From: Sulfurovaceae bacterium
GTDB lineage: Bacteria; Campylobacterota; Campylobacteria; Campylobacterales; Sulfurovaceae
Reading direction: 5' to 3'
Assembly (NCBI GenBank): GCA_028715055.1
Contig: JAQTLE010000004.1
Span: 62,001-126,000, forward strand
Length of the DNA: 64,000 bases
Part shown: one piece after another, positions 23,261 through 33,127 of the stretch
Layout: the number at the start of each line of letters is the position of its first letter
How positions within the stretch are numbered: the stretch's first letter is position 1
The notes under the pieces: model-generated
Told to the model about the DNA's origin: nothing
What the model saw: the letters and a program-made list of their open reading frames with translations, nothing else
Databases searched by the model: none
Made by a program: the position numbers and the translations under genes

Positions 23261-23755
23261 TTAAAAAATAATTTTCATCTCTTTTGCCAATAATTTTACC
23301 GCAAAATCCACCGAAGCATTCTGTACAGCCACCCTGTCGCCTTCAAACAAACAGTGATGCACGATATTTCCGTTTGGTGAAAGCATACCTATATATACTG
23401 TGCCTACAGGCTTAGTAATAGTAGCACCAGTAGGCCCTGCTATCCCAGAAATTGCTATCGCATAATCACAGTTTGTCATTTTTTGGATACCGATCAGCAT
23501 TTGAGCTACGCATTCGCGGCTTACCGCTCCGAATTGTTCTAGTATGCTTGTCTCTACACCAAGCCAGCGGTGCTTTATCTCATTGCTATATGACACTACT
23601 GAGCCGTTGAGCACTCTAGATACGCCTGAAATCGCAGTAAACTTGGATACCAGCAACCCACCTGTGCAACTCTCTGCGAAAGAGATGGTTTGGTTGCTCT
23701 TTTTCAAAGCTTTTATGATGGCGATTATCTGATCTGTAAGTTCATCTTTTTTCAT
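23261..23755 (-). CDS. pncC: Nicotinamide-nucleotide amidohydrolase (CinA C-terminal family)
   Basis: A 164-residue protein equivalent to the C-terminal domain of CinA. Motifs F-A-E-S-C-T-G-G-L-L (30-39), V-V-S-Y-S-N-E-I-K, G-A-V-S-R-E-C-V and I-S-G-I-A-G-P-T-G-A-T are present. Deamidates NMN for NAD recycling. Upstream of the tRNA array in the same direction. Confidence 0.9.
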   Translation of the reverse strand: MKKDELTDQIIAIIKALKKSNQTISFAESCTGGLLVSKFTAISGVSRVLNGSVVSYSNEIKHRWLGVETSILEQFGAVSRECVAQMLIGIQKMTNCDYAIAISGIAGPTGATITKPVGTVYIGMLSPNGNIVHHCLFEGDRVAVQNASVDFAVKLLAKEMKIIF

Positions 23756-23830
23756 ATGATTATTGTAGCATAGTTTGCAACTTGTTTCTCTTTTTTATTA
23801 TAATATGAAAAATAACATAAGGAGTGATTC

Positions 23831-24223
23831 ATGAAACCATTTTCAACAAAAGGTGCTTTTAGTTGGTTTGAGCTGCTTACTAGTGATATTGAGGGTGCAA
23901 AAAAGTTTTATGGAGAGTTGTTCGGATGGAGTTTTAAAAAAGCTGATAATGTAGATTTTGATTACAATGTTGTTTCTTTGAATGGTCAAGAAATGGCAGG
24001 TATCATGGATATAAAACATTGCGGCGATAATAAAATTCCTCCGCATTGGGGAAACTATATAACCGTGCACGATATAAGAGCAACTTTACAAAAAGCACAA
24101 AAGCTTGGAGCGAATGTGATAGTGGAGATCACTCCTATTCCAAAAGTAGGGGATTTTGCTATCATTCAAGATCCGCAAGGTGCTGTTATATCCATGATAG
24201 AATATAAGATGGTGAGCGAGTAA
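23831..24223 (+). CDS. VOC (glyoxalase/bleomycin-resistance) superfamily protein
   Basis: A 130-residue protein with the paired beta-alpha-beta-beta-beta fold signature: F-S-W-F-E-L-L-T-S-D near the start, A-K-K-F-Y-G-E-L-F-G-W, then W-G-N-Y-I-T-V-H-D-I and F-A-I-I-Q-D-P-Q-G-A-V. Substrate unknown. AAGGAG ribosome site. It marks the left edge of the accessory island. Confidence 0.85.
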   Translation: MKPFSTKGAFSWFELLTSDIEGAKKFYGELFGWSFKKADNVDFDYNVVSLNGQEMAGIMDIKHCGDNKIPPHWGNYITVHDIRATLQKAQKLGANVIVEITPIPKVGDFAIIQDPQGAVISMIEYKMVSE

Positions 24224-24234
24224 AAAACGTCCTT

Positions 24235-24306
24235 AAAATGCAAAATAGCTCTAAAAAAATATTTACAAACCGAAAAATATAGTTGCAAAAAAGTAGTTTG
24301 CATTTT
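24235..24306. repeat. Inverted repeat at left edge of accessory island
   Basis: Perfect 10-bp arms AAAATGCAAA (24235-24244) and TTTGCATTTT (24297-24306), 52 nt apart, with CCTT outside the left arm and CCAAG outside the right. Directly after the VOC gene in an otherwise empty 209-nt gap. Could be a distal hairpin terminator or a relic of a mobile element. Confidence 0.4.
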
Positions 24307-24432
24307 CCAAGATGGATAGATTGTCATTTGAGATGATGGCGAAGTTATAATATGTACTAGCTTCATAATAGAAGTTTAGTATAAGTATGGTAAACTTAAA
24401 TAATTAATACTAAATTAGTCTCCGGGGACATC

Positions 24433-24609
24433 ATGGCACTGTTTTCATCTTCTCTCATTCGTGATTACTCTATGGACGAAGCACTTATCGCAACTCGTTG
24501 GGCAAATTTCCAAAAATTCCTATCTAAAATAGATAAAGAGATAAACCAAATGGTGTATAAACTCTATGGGCTTACAGATGATGAGATAAATATTGCAGAA
24601 ATGATATGA
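24433..24609 (+). pseudogene. 58-residue ORF resembling the C-terminal tail of a restriction-modification enzyme
   Basis: Short ORF whose C-terminal half reads K-I-D-K-E-I-N-Q-M-V-Y-K-L-Y-G-L-T-D-D-E-I. That pattern (I-D-x-x-V-Y-x-L-Y-G-L-T-x-x-E-I) is typical of the extreme C-terminus of combined methylase/restriction (Eco57I/type IIG-like) proteins. No methylase domain precedes it; the frame is closed 33 nt upstream by a stop. It ends in an ATGA overlap with the nuclease-STAND gene, as if a larger RM gene once preceded it in an operon. It could instead be a genuine small coupled protein. Confidence 0.5.
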
Positions 24610-27600
24610 ACAAATACCAATTCCCTTTAAAAGATGAAAAAGAGTTTGAATCATTAATTAATGATTTGTGCGAAGAAAAATACGGCATTGAATTTCAAGT
24701 TTATGGGAGAAGAGGTCAAAAACAAAGTGGAATTGATGGGCTTTCTTTTTCGAATAATGAAAAACAAATTGTTTATCAATGCAAAAACAAACTAATAGCT
24801 AGAGATGATACAAAAATTCAAGCTGAGCTTTTAAAAGACATAGAAGATGAAGTTAAATCGGCTAGTACAAAATTTACCAACATAGATACATTTATTTTTG
24901 CGAACTCTTTTAAGCAAGACACTGTTTTGCAAGATAAAGCGACAAAATTAGCATCTCAATATGGCTTTACTATCGTTGTATGGAGCTGGGAAGAGATTGA
25001 AGGATTACTTGAAAAATATCCAAAAGTAGCAAAACACTATTACTCTTGGGCATTTGACAAAAGTATACTAAGTGAAAATGATATAAAACAAAAATTTCAT
25101 GAAAATTCTCTGATTTTACTTTCCTCATCAAATTTATATATTGAAAAAAGTTTTATTGAAATGTCTGAATTTGATGAGATTTTTGAGTTTATAAATAGTG
25201 AAAATTATAAAGATAATTTACTGGTTCTAACAGGAAAAGCGGGTATCGGTAAAACTGCAATACTCAGCAAGATACAAAGTCATCTTATAGAAAACAATAT
25301 GGCATACATAAGTATCAAAAGCGATAAATTCGATATAGACAGCAGAGAATCCTTTTCTAAAATTTTTGGGGTTGAAAATATTTTACACTCTGTAAAACAG
25401 TTAGCTAGGAAAGAAAAAGTTATCATATTAATAGACCAACTGGATGCCCTGTCTTTAACTATGTCATCAAATCAAAAAATGATCAATTTAATTTTAGAGT
25501 TTATTGAGCAGTTAAAGTATATCTCCAATGTAAAAATTATTGTTTCTATCCGTGAATATGATTTAAAAAATGATCCTCTATTCAAAAATTTGGAAGATTC
25601 CAATATTATCAGAACGCAACTATTGAGTTTTGAATATGTCAATGGCAAACTCCAATCTTTTGTAAAAGATTCTACAACATTAAGCAATACCTTAATCGAG
25701 TTATTACGGACACCTTTACATCTCTCGATTTTTATAGATCTATATCCTGATGACAATAGTTGTATATCCATAAAAACTCTACAAGACTTATATAACAATT
25801 TTTGGGAACAAAAAGTTAATAGTAAGTCGATAGAGAGAACTTCGAGACAGAAAATTATTGAGTTATTGAATTCAGTAGTTCATAAAATGAATGAATTGAA
25901 AAAAATTGAAGTTCCTGCTTTGTATTTTGAAGATGAATTTAAAGAAGAAATGAGTCTTTTATTGAGCAATGGTATTTTCAAACAAGAGAATCACAAAATC
26001 TCATTTTTTCATCAAACTTTTTATGATTATGTATTTGCTAGGGATTTTGCCAAAAAAGGTATATCTTTATTTGAGTATATTTTAACAACATCCCAAGATT
26101 TGAGTATAAGGGAACAATTCAAACAGATTATTCAGTTTTTGAGAGGGACTGATCCGGAAAAATATTTATTGGAACTTGACAATATTTTATATTCAGAGCG
26201 AGTTCGATTCCATATCAAGCTTTTATTGATTTCATATCTAGGAAGTCTTGAAAATCCAACTGCAGAAGAGTTTTCATTTATTCAAAAACTTTTTAGAGAT
26301 GATAAAAATTTTGAAAAGTATTTTATTGAGAGTTGGATTTCTGCTGATTGGCTGATCTATTTTAAAGAAGCTGGTTTTTTTAATAATGCAAATTTTCAAA
26401 AATATAACCTACAGAATAGATTAGAAACTTTTATAAACAAAGAAACAGATTTGGTATTTGATATATTGGATAATTGCCAATGTGAAGAGAAAATAAAAAA
26501 CCCTTCAATCATTAATTGCTTAAGTAGATTAGACAACTGGCATGATACAAGCTTTGAAATATTTAAAAAGTATCACTTTTTATTATATGAAGGAGATATT
26601 CATTACTATGACTTAAAAAAGCTTTATCAAAAAATATATCAACTTGATCAAAAATATGCTACAAACATATTTTTTGATTTTTTAAATAAACGAATCGATA
26701 CAGTAGAAGATCATGATAAGAAAGAGTTATTAGACCTTGATTGGTATGAGATATTTGAATTTTTATTAGAACAAAATAATACAGAAATATTGCAAAAACT
26801 ATTAGGGTCAATTTATAAAATTAGTAAAAAATTTTTAAATGAATATTCTAAAAGAGAGTTTTTGATTACTGATAAGGTATTTGATTTTTCTATGTGGCAA
26901 ATTGAAGAATTACATAAAAGCTCATGGGAGATATATCGGAAAACTCTCAATAAGGTATCTCAGTTAGCCATAGATAACAAAGATAGTTTTTTAGAACTTA
27001 TCAAACCATATCAAGATACTCATTATCTTTCGCTTATTACATTTCTAATATTTGGATATTCTAAAACTCCTCATGAATATAGAAGCGAAATATTGAAATT
27101 ATTTACAAATGTAAAGCTTTTAGAAGAACTAGATTTTTCTTATGATAATGGATATGAATTTGCATTACTATTGAATAAGTCTTTTCTACTTTTTAATGAA
27201 ATAGAACAAAAACAAATTTTTAACTCTATAATACAAGTAAATCCAGAATGGCAAAATAAACGGTTTATAGGCAAATATGGGAATGATAAATCCGTATATC
27301 AAGGTACATTTAGAGGATTACAAAAATATGAACTTTTATTTCAACTCGAGATAGAAGATATAAAAAAATTTGGTTATTTCAAAGAGTTTTGTGAATTACA
27401 AAGAAAGTTTTATTGGTATAAGTTAGAAAAACCACATAAGGCAAGAGGAGGATTTATAGGAGCACCTTTATCGGATGATATTTACAACAAAATGAGTTTA
27501 GATAATTGGCTTCACTCAATGAAAGTATTTGATGGAAAAAAATCAAGAAAAAGCGAGGTTTTGGTTTTAAGAGGTGGCAAATCAGAACATTCTCTACAGT

Positions 27601-28901
27601 TTGAAAAAAAGGTTGCAGAAAACCCAGATAATTTTTTTGATTTTTTATTACAACTAAAATCAGAAAATATTCATCCAGATTATTTGTCTGCCGGGCTGAA
27701 TGGACTTATCACAGCGAAATATTACGAGGAAAAAATTTTAAAGATTATTCATTTATATTCAGATATTGATGATAGATGGTTAAAAAGAACTATACTAAAA
27801 GCTATAAAATATTTAATAAGTAAAGATAAGTTCGATGTAAATTTAATAGATATTTTAGAAGTTAATAAAGATATAAGATATCAAGGTCTAGTAAGAGATG
27901 AAAATAAATTTCAAACTATACATGATCATATGTCTAGTTCAATAAATTCTTTTGAAGGTGATTTTGCAGAATTACTGCCTTTAATTTATAAACATGTATT
28001 TAAAGATGAAAATAGCAGAAATAGAGTTTTAAATCTTATTAATGAAGTTATTGCAAAAAATATTGACTTTGTAATATTTGGTTTGCTAAGAACAATAGGA
28101 AATATCGAATCTGTTGATAGACCTTTATTTGTAAAGCTACTAATTGATTTAATTAATAAAGATGAAACAGGACAAGTTGCAATTTATTCTTTACAAAATT
28201 TTCATTATCTATATATGAACAAATTTATTTCAAAAGAAGAAGTAGTAGCTTATATCAGAAAATGTATATCTTTTACGAAGCTTGTAAAAGATAGAGAAGA
28301 TTCAACATGCATAAATAATTTGGGAATGTATTTATATTTTTACTATTTACATGAAGATGATGAAATTTTTGAGGAATTACTTAACGAAGGAATAGATTCA
28401 AACTCTCAAGTTATTCATGGAGTATTACGTCAAATTTTTGAACGAGAAATATATTCAAAAGACAAAGAAAAAGTTGAAAAATCAAAAATGTTTATTTTAA
28501 AATTTAAAGATAATAAAGCAAATGATTATTTTTATACACTTGATTTAGTAAAAATGAATGGACTAAATTTTATTCAAAATGACTTTGAATTTGTAAAAAG
28601 TTTAGCATCATCTCTTCATATAAAGCAAGATGTAAAAAGTTTTATTGAGTATCTTCAAAATGAGTATCATTTAGATACAAATATCGCTGAAAAAATATTT
28701 GAACTTTTAGCAGAGCTAATACAAAATATAGATTCTGTTAAAGATGTTGGTTATTATGACTCACGACCATTGATTGAGTTTATTTTGGAGCTTAACACAA
28801 GAACTAAATCCGATGAAAAAAAATTAGAGATTTTAAATTTGATAGATAAATTTTTAATAAGTGATACGCTAAGATTTAGTACAAAATCAGCAATGGGGTG
28901 A
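24606..28901 (+). CDS. Nuclease-STAND NTPase protein, putative antiphage defence (Avs-like architecture)
   Basis: A 1431-residue protein. Residues ~10-150 look like a PD-(D/E)xK endonuclease of the Mrr/Cap4 type: an early Glu, G-R-R-G-Q-K-Q-S-G-I-D-G (34-45, Asp44) and V-Y-Q-C-K-N-K (56-62, Lys60). Residues ~200-480 form a STAND-type NTPase: Walker A G-K-A-G-I-G-K-T (210-217), Walker B V-I-I-L-I-D-Q-L-D (272-280), a sensor-like S-I-R-E (314-317) and a winged-helix end F-H-Q-T-F-Y-D-Y-V-F-A-R-D-F (~468-481). The remaining ~950 residues are helical, probably a repeat-type sensor. This nuclease-STAND-long sensor order is that of Avs (AVAST) proteins, which sense phage proteins and cut DNA. The subtype cannot be set. 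The gene is visibly AT-richer than its neighbours, suggesting transfer. Start is coupled (ATGA) to the small upstream ORF. Confidence 0.75.
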   Translation: MNKYQFPLKDEKEFESLINDLCEEKYGIEFQVYGRRGQKQSGIDGLSFSNNEKQIVYQCKNKLIARDDTKIQAELLKDIEDEVKSASTKFTNIDTFIFANSFKQDTVLQDKATKLASQYGFTIVVWSWEEIEGLLEKYPKVAKHYYSWAFDKSILSENDIKQKFHENSLILLSSSNLYIEKSFIEMSEFDEIFEFINSENYKDNLLVLTGKAGIGKTAILSKIQSHLIENNMAYISIKSDKFDIDSRESFSKIFGVENILHSVKQLARKEKVIILIDQLDALSLTMSSNQKMINLILEFIEQLKYISNVKIIVSIREYDLKNDPLFKNLEDSNIIRTQLLSFEYVNGKLQSFVKDSTTLSNTLIELLRTPLHLSIFIDLYPDDNSCISIKTLQDLYNNFWEQKVNSKSIERTSRQKIIELLNSVVHKMNELKKIEVPALYFEDEFKEEMSLLLSNGIFKQENHKISFFHQTFYDYVFARDFAKKGISLFEYILTTSQDLSIREQFKQIIQFLRGTDPEKYLLELDNILYSERVRFHIKLLLISYLGSLENPTAEEFSFIQKLFRDDKNFEKYFIESWISADWLIYFKEAGFFNNANFQKYNLQNRLETFINKETDLVFDILDNCQCEEKIKNPSIINCLSRLDNWHDTSFEIFKKYHFLLYEGDIHYYDLKKLYQKIYQLDQKYATNIFFDFLNKRIDTVEDHDKKELLDLDWYEIFEFLLEQNNTEILQKLLGSIYKISKKFLNEYSKREFLITDKVFDFSMWQIEELHKSSWEIYRKTLNKVSQLAIDNKDSFLELIKPYQDTHYLSLITFLIFGYSKTPHEYRSEILKLFTNVKLLEELDFSYDNGYEFALLLNKSFLLFNEIEQKQIFNSIIQVNPEWQNKRFIGKYGNDKSVYQGTFRGLQKYELLFQLEIEDIKKFGYFKEFCELQRKFYWYKLEKPHKARGGFIGAPLSDDIYNKMSLDNWLHSMKVFDGKKSRKSEVLVLRGGKSEHSLQFEKKVAENPDNFFDFLLQLKSENIHPDYLSAGLNGLITAKYYEEKILKIIHLYSDIDDRWLKRTILKAIKYLISKDKFDVNLIDILEVNKDIRYQGLVRDENKFQTIHDHMSSSINSFEGDFAELLPLIYKHVFKDENSRNRVLNLINEVIAKNIDFVIFGLLRTIGNIESVDRPLFVKLLIDLINKDETGQVAIYSLQNFHYLYMNKFISKEEVVAYIRKCISFTKLVKDREDSTCINNLGMYLYFYYLHEDDEIFEELLNEGIDSNSQVIHGVLRQIFEREIYSKDKEKVEKSKMFILKFKDNKANDYFYTLDLVKMNGLNFIQNDFEFVKSLASSLHIKQDVKSFIEYLQNEYHLDTNIAEKIFELLAELIQNIDSVKDVGYYDSRPLIEFILELNTRTKSDEKKLEILNLIDKFLISDTLRFSTKSAMG

Positions 28902-28935
28902 GATTTAATAACATTTCTCATGCATTAATAAATGG

Positions 28936-29028
28936 GTCAGGTAATGTTGATGTTACAAATAACTTTATAGACTCCGAAAATATAGGTGTCAGGTAATGCT
29001 GATGCTACAAATAACTTCTTAGACTCCG
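28936..29028. repeat. Two-copy tandem repeat, 52-nt period
   Basis: A 41-nt unit at 28936-28976 (starting GTCAGGTAATGTTGATGTTA) recurs at 28988-29028 with 37 of 41 positions equal. Both end in TAGACTCCG. Non-coding, directly after the STAND gene. The 14-nt end of the unit also appears after the ORF6N gene at 29775-29789. Confidence 0.8.
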
Positions 29029-29083
29029 CAATGACAATATAGATACTGAAACGAGTTCAGCATTATAAAGATTCCCACCCTTC

Positions 29084-29147
29084 CGACGCGGTTACACTTT
29101 CCAACAATCATATAATAACACTTAAAATCACAATAGGCTAAAAATAT
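29084..29147. repeat. 64-nt non-coding module, copy A (after STAND gene)
   Basis: Starts CGACGCGGTTACACTTTCC and matches 29863-29926 without gaps at 55 of 64 positions. Together with the preceding TAGACTCC element it forms a roughly 135-nt module that follows the STAND gene; a related ~150-nt module follows the ORF6N gene. The rest of the 28902-29227 gap holds the tandem repeat and the ORF6N upstream region. Confidence 0.75.
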
Positions 29148-29151
29148 GACG

Positions 29152-29213
29152 ATTTGACATATTTCACAATTTTACTCAACTTTTTCATTATCATCATAAA
29201 ATATATGTCAAAT
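29152..29213 (+). promoter_or_regulatory. 11-bp inverted repeat upstream of ORF6N gene
   Basis: Perfect arms ATTTGACATAT (29152-29162) and ATATGTCAAAT (29203-29213), 40 nt apart; the right arm ends just before the AGGAGG ribosome site. Candidate operator pair or a long-loop mRNA hairpin controlling the ORF6N gene. Confidence 0.5.
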
Positions 29214-29227
29214 TGTAGGAGGTTACA

Positions 29228-29734
29228 ATGGATGAATTGATAATGCAAGGCGAAATAAATAGTAGAATATTTAATTTACGCAGTAGGCAGATTATGCTAG
29301 ATGCGGACTTGGCAGAACTTTATGGTGTAGAGACAAAATATCTTAAACGGCAAGTACAAAGAAATTTTGAGCGTTTTAATGAAGAAGATTTTATGTTTGT
29401 GCTCTCAAGAGAAGAGTTTGGATTTTTGCGGAGCCAAATTGGCACCTCAAATTTTTCTAAAACTAGAGCAATGCCGTTTGCATTCACGGAGCAAGGAGTA
29501 TATATGCTAGCAACCGTTATTAATAGTCCAATAGCAATAAGCACGACTAAAAATATAATGCGCACATTTGCAAAACTCAGAGAATTTTCAAAACACTATA
29601 ACATACTGGCAAAGCAAATTATAGAGCTTGATAAAAAACATGATAAGCAATACAAGGAGTTAAAAAATGCTCTTGATGAACTTGTCAACAATGCTGCACT
29701 TGCAGATGAGCATGTGATAGGGTTTATAAAATAA
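29228..29734 (+). CDS. ORF6N-domain (KilA-N-associated, phage antirepressor-like) protein
   Basis: A 168-residue protein with an N-terminal ORF6N DNA-binding domain: I-F-N-L-R-S-R-Q-I-M-L-D-A-D-L-A-E-L-Y-G, followed by V-Q-R-N-F-E-R-F and R-A-M-P-F-A-F-T-E-Q-G-V-Y-M-L-A-T-V, and a C-terminal coiled coil (~120-160). Such proteins are common in phages and as single mobile genes in bacterial chromosomes; role uncertain (regulatory). Strong AGGAGG ribosome site. No other phage genes are near. Confidence 0.88.
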   Translation: MDELIMQGEINSRIFNLRSRQIMLDADLAELYGVETKYLKRQVQRNFERFNEEDFMFVLSREEFGFLRSQIGTSNFSKTRAMPFAFTEQGVYMLATVINSPIAISTTKNIMRTFAKLREFSKHYNILAKQIIELDKKHDKQYKELKNALDELVNNAALADEHVIGFIK

Positions 29735-29862
29735 ATGATATGAAATACAGAAGGAGTTTTTAGGCGAAAATGACAACTTTTTAGACTCCATATCAAGTAC
29801 AAAGCAGCACAAAACATAAATTGCAACATTTTGTCTTCAATGATATCTTCCGCCCCCTCAGT

Positions 29863-29926
29863 CGACGCGGTCGCACTTTCCTACAATGATATCATGACAC
29901 TTAAAATCATAATAGGTTTAAAATAT
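29863..29926. repeat. 64-nt non-coding module, copy B (after ORF6N gene)
   Basis: Second copy of the module at 29084-29147 (55 of 64 equal, no gaps), preceded at 29775-29789 by the shared ACTTTTTAGACTCC element. It lies in the 633-nt gene-free stretch 29735-30367, which otherwise shows only the hairpins at 30098-30129, AT-rich DNA and the ileS upstream region. Confidence 0.75.
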
Positions 29927-30097
29927 TGCATTTTTACATATTTTTTAATATTTTTTATCTCCAAAGTTATAATTTACGACATACCATAAACGAGGACATA
30001 TTGACATAGTATGAATAAACGATTTGATGAATAGAATAGGGATGGTTGATAAGGAAAATTTTAAAATAATTCAAGAAAAAATAAAGGGGTTGATTGG

Positions 30098-30129
30098 ACC
30101 CGCTTAAAAAAGCGGGTGTGCCCGAAGGC
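30098..30129. repeat. Paired hairpins in island right edge
   Basis: Perfect 8-bp stem ACCCGCTT/AAGCGGGT with an AAAA loop (30098-30117), followed 2 nt later by GCCCGAAGGC (30120-30129), which on the minus strand is a 3-bp stem with a TTCG tetraloop. GC-rich against an AT-rich background. Possibly a relic of a mobile element end or a terminator of a lost gene. Confidence 0.5.
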
Positions 30130-30367
30130 AAATTGTAAGAAATTATACAATATTTCAAAAACTGTGTAAAGTGGAAAATGATTACTCTCAGCAAAAAACA
30201 TTAGTAGACATTCATAATTTACCAGCGCCTTTGCAATTATTACGATTTTTGCATTACTTTTTCTAAAAAGTAGTAAAGAAAAATTAATCCAAAAATCACA
30301 CCAAAACCAAACCTTAATCCACTTTTGGGTATAATCACCACAATTTAGAGACCGAAGGCATAATGAT

Positions 30368-33127
30368 ATGATAGATTATAAAGATACGCTTTTACTTCCG
30401 CAGACAGATTTTCCAATGCGTGGAAACCTGCCTCAAAATGAGCCGGTCAGATACGCTGCATGGAAGAAAGACGGTGTATATGAGCAGATGAAAACTCTAA
30501 GAGAAGGAAAGCCTAGCTTTACGCTTCATGACGGTCCTCCGTATGCCAACGGCACTATCCATATCGGACATGCACTCAATAAAATACTTAAAGACATAGT
30601 GGTGAAATATCACTATTTCCAAGGCAAATCAGTTCGTTTCGTTCCAGGTTGGGATTGTCATGGATTGCCTATCGAGCAAAAAGTAGAAGAGAGCATCGGC
30701 AAAGAAGCAAAAGAAGCTATGCCTGCTTCTCAGTTTCGTTCGCTTTGTCGTGAACATGCCTCAAAATTCGTAGCTATCCAAAAAGAAGGATTTGAATCTC
30801 TGGGCGTAGTGGCTGATTGGGATAATCCTTATGTGACTATGGATTTCAAATTTGAAGCCAATATCTATAGAACATTATGTGAAGTAGCAAGTAAAGGTTT
30901 GCTCATAGAACGCCATAAACCGATCTTCTGGTCATGGGCTGCCCAAACTGCACTTGCTGATGCAGAGGTAGAGTACAAAGACAAAGAAGATTACTCGATA
31001 TACGTGGCTTTTGAATTAAGCGACAAAACAAAAGAAGAACTCGAAATCCATGGTAAAGCAGCGATAGTTATCTGGACCACGACGCCATGGACATTGCCTG
31101 CAAATACCGGTATATCGCTAAATCCGGACGAGATGTATGTCATCAGTGAAGATGGGTACATCGTGGCTGAAAGCAGATATGGAGCATTATCCGAGATGGG
31201 TATCATAGGCAAACATTCAGGCAGAAAAATTGCCGCTAGAGAACTAGAAAATCATATCGCTATCAATCCATTGAATGACAGAAATTCAACTATCGTTTTG
31301 GGCGAACACGTAATGCTTGACGGCGGTACCGGTGCTGTACATACCGCTCCCGGGCATGGAGAAGACGACTATCGCGTAGGACTCAAGTATGATCTAGAAG
31401 TGCTTATGCCCGTGGATGAAAAAGGGTGTTATGACGAGAGTATAGTAGGGCATCATTTGCTTCCAAATCCAAGCGAATTTGTAGGCATGCATATATTTAA
31501 AGCAAACGCTCCTATCTTGGAACTGCTTGGAGATGCGCTTTTGCATCAAAGCAAGTTCGTTCACTCATATCCGCATTGCTGGAGAACAAAAAAACCGCTT
31601 ATCTACAGAGCAACGAATCAATGGTTCATATCTGTGGACGCCAAACCTAAAGGCGAAGAAAATACTTTGCGCGAGATCGCACTCGAGGAAGTAGCAAATA
31701 CCACATTCTATCCGGCTTGGGGTAGAGGTAGACTTGAAGGCATGATAGAGCAGCGTCCTGACTGGTGTATATCGCGTCAGAGATCATGGGGTGTGCCAAT
31801 AGCATTTTTCCGTGTCAAAAAGACAAAAGAAGTTATCTTTGATGAAAAGGTGCTCAATTTCACAGCTATGATATTTGATAGTCACGGTTGTGATGCATGG
31901 TATGATATGCCAATATCCCAGTTGCTATATCCAGGCAGCGGATACGACCCGGAAGATCTTGAAAAGATCACTGATATTTTGGATGTTTGGTTTGATAGCG
32001 GTTCTACTTGGAACAGTGTGCTAAAAAGCTCGAACTACGACGCGGGACAATATCCTGCCGATCTATACCTAGAAGGCAGCGATCAGCATAGAGGATGGTT
32101 CCAAAGCTCATTGCTTCTTTCAACTGCAGTCAATCATCATGCTCCATATAAAGCTCTGCTTACTCATGGATTTACCGTCGATGAAAAAGGTGAAAAGATG
32201 AGTAAGTCCAAAGGCAATGTCGTAGCTCCTGATGAAGTGACAAAAGAGTTTGGCTCTGAGATCTTGCGTCTTTGGGTAGCGCTCAGTGATTATCAAAGTG
32301 ATCTAAAGATCTCATCCGCAATTCTCAAGCAAACAGCAGAGCAGTACAGAAAGATCCGTAATACATTTAGATTTTTGCTCGCAAATATCAATGACCTAGA
32401 AAACATCGTTGATAACGATAAATTCGGCGAGCTAGACAGATGGATACTTGCAAGCGCAAAAAAAGTATTTGATGAAGTCAAAGTGAATTTTGACAATTAC
32501 GATTTCTTGCGCGGATTTGCGATACTCAATCATTTCTTGACAAACGATCTTAGTGCTATATATATGGATATCTGCAAAGACAGACTTTATTGTGACAGCA
32601 TAAACGGAGATGCTAGACGCTCAGCACAAAGCGCAATGGCGCTTATCGCTAAAAGCATGCTAGCTCTAGTAGCGCCGGTTCTTACTTATACAGCTGATGA
32701 GATACTTGATTTTGCTCCGGCTATGCTAAAAGGAAATGCAAAAAATATATTTGAATTTGAATATATTCAGCTGCCTGAGGTCTGCTCTGATCTTGATGTG
32801 ACGATACTAGCCGATATGAGAGATGCATTTTCCGAGGAGATAGATAAGCTCAAAAAAGAGAAGATCATCAAATCCACATTGGAAGTCGAGCTTGTGAGCG
32901 AAGATGTAGATTTTGATTTTAGCGATCAAAAAGATCTTGAAGATTGGTTCATGGTATCTGATGTTAAAAAATACGGCACTTCTAAAATATTGGCCTCATT
33001 TGAAGTAGGTGGAAAAATATTTGAGATAGCTGCAGCATCACAACACAAATGCCCTAGATGCTGGAGATATAAAAGCACAGCCGAAAATGAACTTTGCAGT
33101 AGATGCGACGAGGTGATTAATGCTTGA
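30368..33127 (+). CDS. ileS: Isoleucyl-tRNA synthetase
   Basis: 919-residue class I synthetase. H-I-G-H (65-68) and K-M-S-K-S (about 609-613) catalytic motifs, an editing domain with T-T-P-W-T-L-P-A-N, and a C-terminal zinc finger C-P-R-C-W...C-S-R-C are present. Normal length for the bacterial form. First gene of ileS - small ORF - gatA - guaB. Confidence 0.97.
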   Translation: MIDYKDTLLLPQTDFPMRGNLPQNEPVRYAAWKKDGVYEQMKTLREGKPSFTLHDGPPYANGTIHIGHALNKILKDIVVKYHYFQGKSVRFVPGWDCHGLPIEQKVEESIGKEAKEAMPASQFRSLCREHASKFVAIQKEGFESLGVVADWDNPYVTMDFKFEANIYRTLCEVASKGLLIERHKPIFWSWAAQTALADAEVEYKDKEDYSIYVAFELSDKTKEELEIHGKAAIVIWTTTPWTLPANTGISLNPDEMYVISEDGYIVAESRYGALSEMGIIGKHSGRKIAARELENHIAINPLNDRNSTIVLGEHVMLDGGTGAVHTAPGHGEDDYRVGLKYDLEVLMPVDEKGCYDESIVGHHLLPNPSEFVGMHIFKANAPILELLGDALLHQSKFVHSYPHCWRTKKPLIYRATNQWFISVDAKPKGEENTLREIALEEVANTTFYPAWGRGRLEGMIEQRPDWCISRQRSWGVPIAFFRVKKTKEVIFDEKVLNFTAMIFDSHGCDAWYDMPISQLLYPGSGYDPEDLEKITDILDVWFDSGSTWNSVLKSSNYDAGQYPADLYLEGSDQHRGWFQSSLLLSTAVNHHAPYKALLTHGFTVDEKGEKMSKSKGNVVAPDEVTKEFGSEILRLWVALSDYQSDLKISSAILKQTAEQYRKIRNTFRFLLANINDLENIVDNDKFGELDRWILASAKKVFDEVKVNFDNYDFLRGFAILNHFLTNDLSAIYMDICKDRLYCDSINGDARRSAQSAMALIAKSMLALVAPVLTYTADEILDFAPAMLKGNAKNIFEFEYIQLPEVCSDLDVTILADMRDAFSEEIDKLKKEKIIKSTLEVELVSEDVDFDFSDQKDLEDWFMVSDVKKYGTSKILASFEVGGKIFEIAAASQHKCPRCWRYKSTAENELCSRCDEVINA

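Follow-up and report, generated by a model that had tools for sequence, protein, structure and literature searches.

The locus described here raises the question of what a frame of only 58 codons is doing directly ahead of, and overlapping, a long STAND NTPase gene in the window, the whole 64,000-nucleotide stretch of Sulfurovaceae DNA that was analysed. The open reading frame (ORF) starts with ATG, stops with TGA and encodes a product of 58 aa, and its stop overlaps the start of the defence gene at ATGA, both as described in a sequence-only reading of the locus. That reading took the ORF for the tail of an RM (methylase/restriction) protein, with nothing of the rest, and suggested that the RM gene was lost and only its end remained to start translation of the next gene. 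The features of the locus, in window positions, are listed below.

24288-24353, plus strand: scrap of a 288-aa ORF6N-type gene, its last ~22 codons (86% over 66 nt to locus L029, 10727-10662)
24362-24432, plus strand: leader of the RM gene (DNA match to genomes G005 and G007)
24433-24609, plus strand: 58-codon ORF, an in-frame shell of a Type IIG RM gene by sequence comparison
24433-24534, plus strand: N-terminal part of the shell, 34 codons (protein and DNA match to G005 and G007)
24535-24590, plus strand: C-terminal part of the shell, ~22 codons after the joint (93.5% to the end of the G005 RM gene)
24590-24608, plus strand: last shell codons, putatively the STAND gene's own short leader (boundary inferred from the start of the match to locus L054)
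24606-24609, plus strand: ATGA, the shell stop over the STAND ORF start, read from the sequence
24606-28901, plus strand: STAND NTPase ORF, 1431 aa (Pfam nSTAND3)
29228-29734, plus strand: ORF6N gene (domain match)

The RM-like tail was borne out by the comparison with known enzymes. Residues 25-56 match the C-terminal end of the PADLOC Type IIG model PDLC03609 (E 1e-6), aligning to its positions 1031-1062 of 1066. The statement that nothing of the rest remains proved wrong, as the N-terminus of the same kind of enzyme is recognisable in residues 1-35, with 91% identity to G007 (E 3.7e-16) and 86% to G005 (E 1.6e-15). At E <=0.1, 36 of the 99 related genomes match the ORF, with the best matches N-terminal; these, in G007 and G005, sit where long frames start, and the G005 frame carries the tail (ORF residues 15-56) at its other end. 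The G005 RM gene, from the same genus as the window, is whole (1008 aa), is assigned to Type IIG by its match to PDLC03609 (E 4.8e-186), and contains the Pfam domains Eco57I, N6_Mtase and TaqI_C. The nuclease, N6-methyltransferase and target recognition parts are all absent from the 58-aa ORF, which is a remnant and not a member of the family.

At the DNA level, positions 24362-24533, comprising the leader and the 34 codons, match G005 at 83.2% and G007 at 85.5%, and positions 24545-24590 match the end of the G005 RM gene at 93.5%; the joint lies between 24534 and 24545. Judged from these alignments, about 950 codons of a Type IIG RM gene are missing between the two kept ends, with the frame preserved. 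Thus, the earlier view that an RM gene was lost and left a remnant overlapping the start of the defence gene stands, but its claim that only the end was left does not, since the leader, the start codon and the first 34 codons are kept, joined in frame to the last ~22. The leader holds an inverted repeat, AAGTTTA...TAAACTT (24385-24410), also seen by eye in the leaders of G005 and G007 (L026 and L027), which could bind a regulator. A promoter consensus scan of the leader found nothing on the plus strand and two matches on the minus strand, equal to shuffles. At the other end, the usual RM ending I-V-E-G is absent from the shell of the window. Because the match to L054, a stand-alone STAND relative, begins at 24590, the last codons of the shell may be STAND leader rather than RM, with the stop supplied by the ATGA.

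A Pfam scan of the 58-aa ORF gave nothing significant, and FliJ (Pfam, E 0.067) and Fdh-alpha (NCBIfam, E 0.04), considered as its family, were judged to be chance matches. The DNA of the locus had no match among plasmids, and the ORF protein had two weak C-terminal matches among plasmids (Halorubrum, Halorussus) and none among phages. No second copy was found in its own genome, where the window itself is the sole place.

The STAND label that had been given to the next gene holds, the nSTAND3 match being above the Pfam cutoff (E 5.7e-7; 29.8 bits versus 27.2). A weak Mrr-like stretch at residues 11-85 fell below the cutoff. In PADLOC, the only matches of the protein were to the candidate family PDC-M54A (E 2e-13), restricted to residues 204-479, and weakly to TRIP13 (E 0.01). 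A full-length RM gene ahead of this STAND gene was found in no genome, and none of the four near STAND relatives has an RM gene nearby, which ruled out an old fixed pair of STAND and RM. The sequence-only reading had proposed looking for a full-length RM gene at syntenic loci, and this was answered in part: at the equivalent chromosomal position of G006 lies such a gene (997 aa), whose end overlaps the following gene at ATGA, but neither its RM allele nor that following gene is the one of the window.

The order of genes in the window is cinA, a glyoxalase gene, the shell, the STAND ORF, the ORF6N gene and an Ile/Val-type tRNA synthetase gene (30368-33127). In G006, cinA and the synthetase gene are separated by the glyoxalase gene (found in 2 of the 11 genus genomes), the 288-aa ORF6N-type gene, whole and directly ahead of the RM gene, the RM gene, and a 183-aa ORF at the ATGA overlap. 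The distance from cinA to the synthetase gene is ~0.1 kb in G005 and G009, ~0.5 kb in G001, 2.6 kb in G010 and 13 kb in G008. This interval (window 23261-30368) is near empty in G005 and G009 and holds differing inserts in G006, G008, G010 and the window, and from this comparison of gene orders it is likely to be an insertion hotspot. The RM ends of the window are of the G005/G007 kind, and the G006 enzyme is 52% identical in its N-part. In G005, the RM gene sits at another chromosomal place and is followed by a DUF2971 gene at a TTGA overlap and then by an ORF6N gene, so that the order RM, another gene, ORF6N is common to G005 and the window. The 66-nt ORF6N-type scrap at 24288-24353 is a second decayed gene, directly before the RM leader. 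ORF6N-type genes recur close to these RM loci; in L095 (8981-11961), three of them stand in tandem after an RM N-terminal scrap.

An N-terminal profile of 36 columns was run on four families of 228, 104, 44 and 175 genomes (551 in total), and detected 62, 30, 12 and 22 places, respectively (126 altogether). We tabled 102 of these places together with three loci from the search of near genomes (G079, G061 and G082, outside the four families and all intact), which gave 105 loci; the remaining 24 places were left out as lying at contig ends, as weaker matches, or by choice. When a frame of 850 codons or more is called intact, the table holds 54 intact loci, 14 running off the contig or region, and 37 short ones. 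Seven of the short loci retain both ends and no core (the window, G595a, G317, G271, G341, G629 and G148). Manual sorting divided the other 30 into 10 long loci that are broken, truncated or located at a contig end, 18 with an N-terminal piece only, and two (G503 and G032) without a match.

All shells but that of G148 keep the frame (six of seven), as compared with an expectation of one third (P 15/2187 = 0.007, calculated by hand). The discovery of the shells was independent of frame, since each of them was picked up by the N-terminal profile by itself and the search for the other end covered every frame, with those of G271 and G629 resting on short N-parts (E 2e-4 and 8e-4). Downstream of six of the seven, an ORF of 218-1431 aa begins at an offset of -11 to 0 nt. 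In G595a, the ATGA is present but the next ORF ends after 9 codons; a STAND-like start there, which agrees with L053 in 19 of 24 bases and then stops, was excluded from the count. A clustering of the N-side joints near codon 34 was considered and dropped, since the larger joint of G341 lies further in (by comparison with G613) and G271, G629 and several scraps break elsewhere.

The shell of G341 and the near full-length RM gene of G613, which carries two nonsense codons, are followed by a common 257-aa protein (98%). G341 differs from G613 by one small and one large deletion, both frame-keeping and the large one at a short shared AAAAGA (by eye), and the homologous block of the two genomes begins ~30 nt ahead of the RM start. 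The two genomes thus lost RM function along different routes, and the next gene stayed.

The junction is also found at intact RM genes. In 42 of the 54, the RM stop has an ORF start within -11 to +5 nt; the offsets are -11 (n=1), -4 (n=12), -1 (n=12), 0 (n=8) and +1 to +5 (n=9), with four further starts at +30 to +75 and none in eight genes. Under a strict rule that counts only complete ORFs of at least 60 aa, the junction occurs at 40 of 54 RM genes as compared with 45 of 191 other genes (at least 300 aa, from the same loci, with starts predicted by rule in both sets; Fisher P 2e-11) and at 9.4% of random positions. The next proteins are diverse, with 51 of them (at least 20 aa; the 9-aa G595a fragment excluded) falling into 44 clusters at E 1e-4. 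When 30 were scanned against Pfam, 13 had no family at E 0.001; the families above cutoff were FRG, DUF3800 (twice), SieB, RhuM, DUF6602, Schlafen AlbA_2, Mrr, protein kinase, DUF2971 (twice), ApeA N-terminal and zeta toxin, and some further proteins matched below cutoff. PADLOC gave no match for 10 of 20 next proteins, and its matches include LmuA, a NucC-like nuclease, kinases (mad6, PD-T4-6) and the candidate families PDC-S15, PDC-S31 and PDC-M04A. Among the five shell partners other than STAND, three (L090, L091 and L092) have no match in Pfam or PADLOC. Comparison of the sequences thus demonstrates the collapsed-shell origin of the ORF and the tight junction to differing, often defence-like next genes, and the in-frame excess of shells is observed in a small sample.

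We also looked at the end of the RM gene itself. Of the 54 intact genes, 36 have a GGAG/GAGG/AGGA core at 4-20 nt ahead of the last base of the RM stop; the corresponding frequencies are 8.4% inside the genes, 56 of 212 for other gene ends and 26 of 53 where other coupled genes end. The ribosome-site core is therefore commoner in RM ends than in coupled genes generally, by a margin that is not wide. The core is written by the codons for V-E-G, with GTG used in 32 of 47 (15% elsewhere in the gene) and GAG in 36 of 50 (33%). As proof of a ribosome site this codon bias was rejected and is kept as support only, because the E of D-E-I is also GAG in 43 of 53 and the whole tail is biased. The shell of the window has no such core.

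Further RM tails lie downstream of the intact RM gene in 3 of the 54 loci (two in G020, and further ones in G052 and G322b). Extra tails of this kind are seen at L030, L040 and L159, and the L040 tail is 94% identical to the RM gene's own end. The status of G360 and G479 is ambiguous, their RM genes being themselves broken, and tail scraps were seen by eye downstream in G006 and G595a. Such tail copies would fit a stacking of tail-plus-gene units. Among 16 fragments picked by hand as short or tail-bearing, seven lead into an ORF (72 to 660 aa) with an offset of -8 to 0 nt. L102 and L103 are tail-only short ORFs of another RM subfamily and lead into further ORFs (660 aa at -4 and 614 aa at -8), and therefore the junction pattern may reach other Type IIG groups.

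We consider it probable that the ORF is a collapsed Type IIG shell whose parent gene had a stop adjoining exchangeable next genes, and that the shell is still read and couples the translation of STAND, so that in-frame shells last. With the middle of the RM gene (~950 codons) lost, the shell would be translated as the first cistron, and ribosomes ending at its TGA would start STAND at the overlapping ATG. Selection would then keep the shell, because loss of the core with frame, start and end retained preserves the coupling, as the six in-frame shells suggest. This reading is supported by the match of both ends to one kind of RM enzyme, the mostly synonymous changes of the N-part, the shells that are in frame and followed by a coupled long ORF (six of seven in each case), the junction at 42 of 54 intact genes, the next protein kept by G341 and G613, and the ribosome core in 36 of 54 genes. 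It is weakened by the out-of-frame shell of G148, the 9-codon next ORF of G595a, the 12 of 54 intact genes without a start at the junction, and the fact that most short RM loci are not shells (18 of 37 are N-terminal scraps only). Also weighing against it, the window shell lacks both the V-E-G end and the ribosome core, its leader has no plus-strand promoter match, the four near STAND relatives work, if at all, without RM ahead, the starts are predicted rather than annotated, and 24 of 126 places stand outside the table.

A serious rival, although on balance we doubt it, is a neutral scar, i.e. a fairly young internal deletion whose frame was kept by luck (a one-in-three chance), with the ATGA derived from an ordinary operon and no role for the ORF. 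The N-part indeed resembles that of an intact gene, with 12 synonymous and 2 non-synonymous codon differences from G007 (11 and 4 between the intact genes of G005 and G007), a ratio that fits youth as well as constraint. The stand-alone position of the STAND relatives agrees with such a scar, as does the predominance of N-terminal scraps and broken genes over shells. However, chance retention of frame sits poorly with six of seven shells being in frame and six of seven having a coupled long ORF, and with the finding that seven of the 16 fragments picked by hand, tail-only or short, lead into an ORF at -8 to 0.

It seems quite improbable that the shell is a working small protein, e.g. one that acts together with the next protein or regulates other RM enzymes, even though both retained ends are conserved ones and four more profile-found shells (56 to 158 codons, in frame) have both ends, since the joints vary among shells and the next proteins are unrelated. 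The sequence-only reading had named conserved stand-alone homologues with the same start as the mark of a real small gene. Among the 99 near genomes, a whole-ORF match was found only in the genome of the window itself, the next widest match being weak (28%, E 0.07) and in a 537-codon frame. At least 99 of 398 order-level genomes match the ORF at E 0.001; among the matches listed, G317 and G271 are short open ORFs covering both ends, some other genomes have both RM ends close together, and the G300 match (residues 5-56, 29%) has stops inside. No other full-length homologue with the same joint was found in the 99 near genomes or among the matches listed for the 398 order-level genomes. Short relatives with both ends thus exist, but because the joints and next genes of G317 and G271 differ from those of the window, the two look like separate collapses of one gene family and not like one conserved small gene. 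A remnant consisting of just the C-terminal end of an RM gene and a start that arose by chance is hardly credible and is refuted at this locus by the RM origin of the leader and first 34 codons, although tail-only short ORFs exist elsewhere (G399, G322).

Returning to the coupled shell, the data hint that exchangeable coupled genes dock at the RM 3' end, and that the shell keeps this arrangement. As a wider and more tentative proposal, which we hold to be possible without leaning towards it, the 3' end of a Type IIG gene in these Campylobacterota may serve as a landing pad, where a strong ribosome site and a stop meeting the next start would allow an incoming defence gene to be translated at once, tail copies would provide homology for exchange and stacking, and a shell or tail alone could persist as the pad after the enzyme is gone. 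Should this hold, the gene directly following the stop in this RM family would point the way to new defence genes (13 of 30 without a Pfam family), the persistence of in-frame RM gene fragments in genomes would be explained, and the locus would offer a clean case for whether translational coupling alone preserves a gene fragment. If the neutral scar is correct, the locus is one more decayed RM gene. At title and abstract level, in a literature coverage that leaves most subscription journals outside, nothing was found on variable genes coupled to Type IIG ends or on in-frame RM shells.

Compared with known systems, both ends of the shell are those of Type IIG RM enzymes (PADLOC REase_MTase_IIG; Pfam Eco57I and TaqI_C), but these possess nuclease, methyltransferase and recognition parts, and the shell has none of them. 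The next gene resembles STAND defence NTPases, of which Avs is an example, in its nSTAND3 match, but differs in that no Avs model of PADLOC matched its protein. A stop-start overlap is a general feature of translationally coupled gene pairs, and an ATGA, TGATG or TAATG junction is likewise present at many RM loci here; in contrast to such pairs, the second gene is exchanged between genomes (the 51 proteins in 44 clusters), and the first may shrink to a shell. In the domain movement reported for RM genes of Helicobacter pylori (PMC3077401), recombination likewise alters parts of such genes. That work deals with sequences within the RM genes, whereas here it is the gene after the RM stop that differs.
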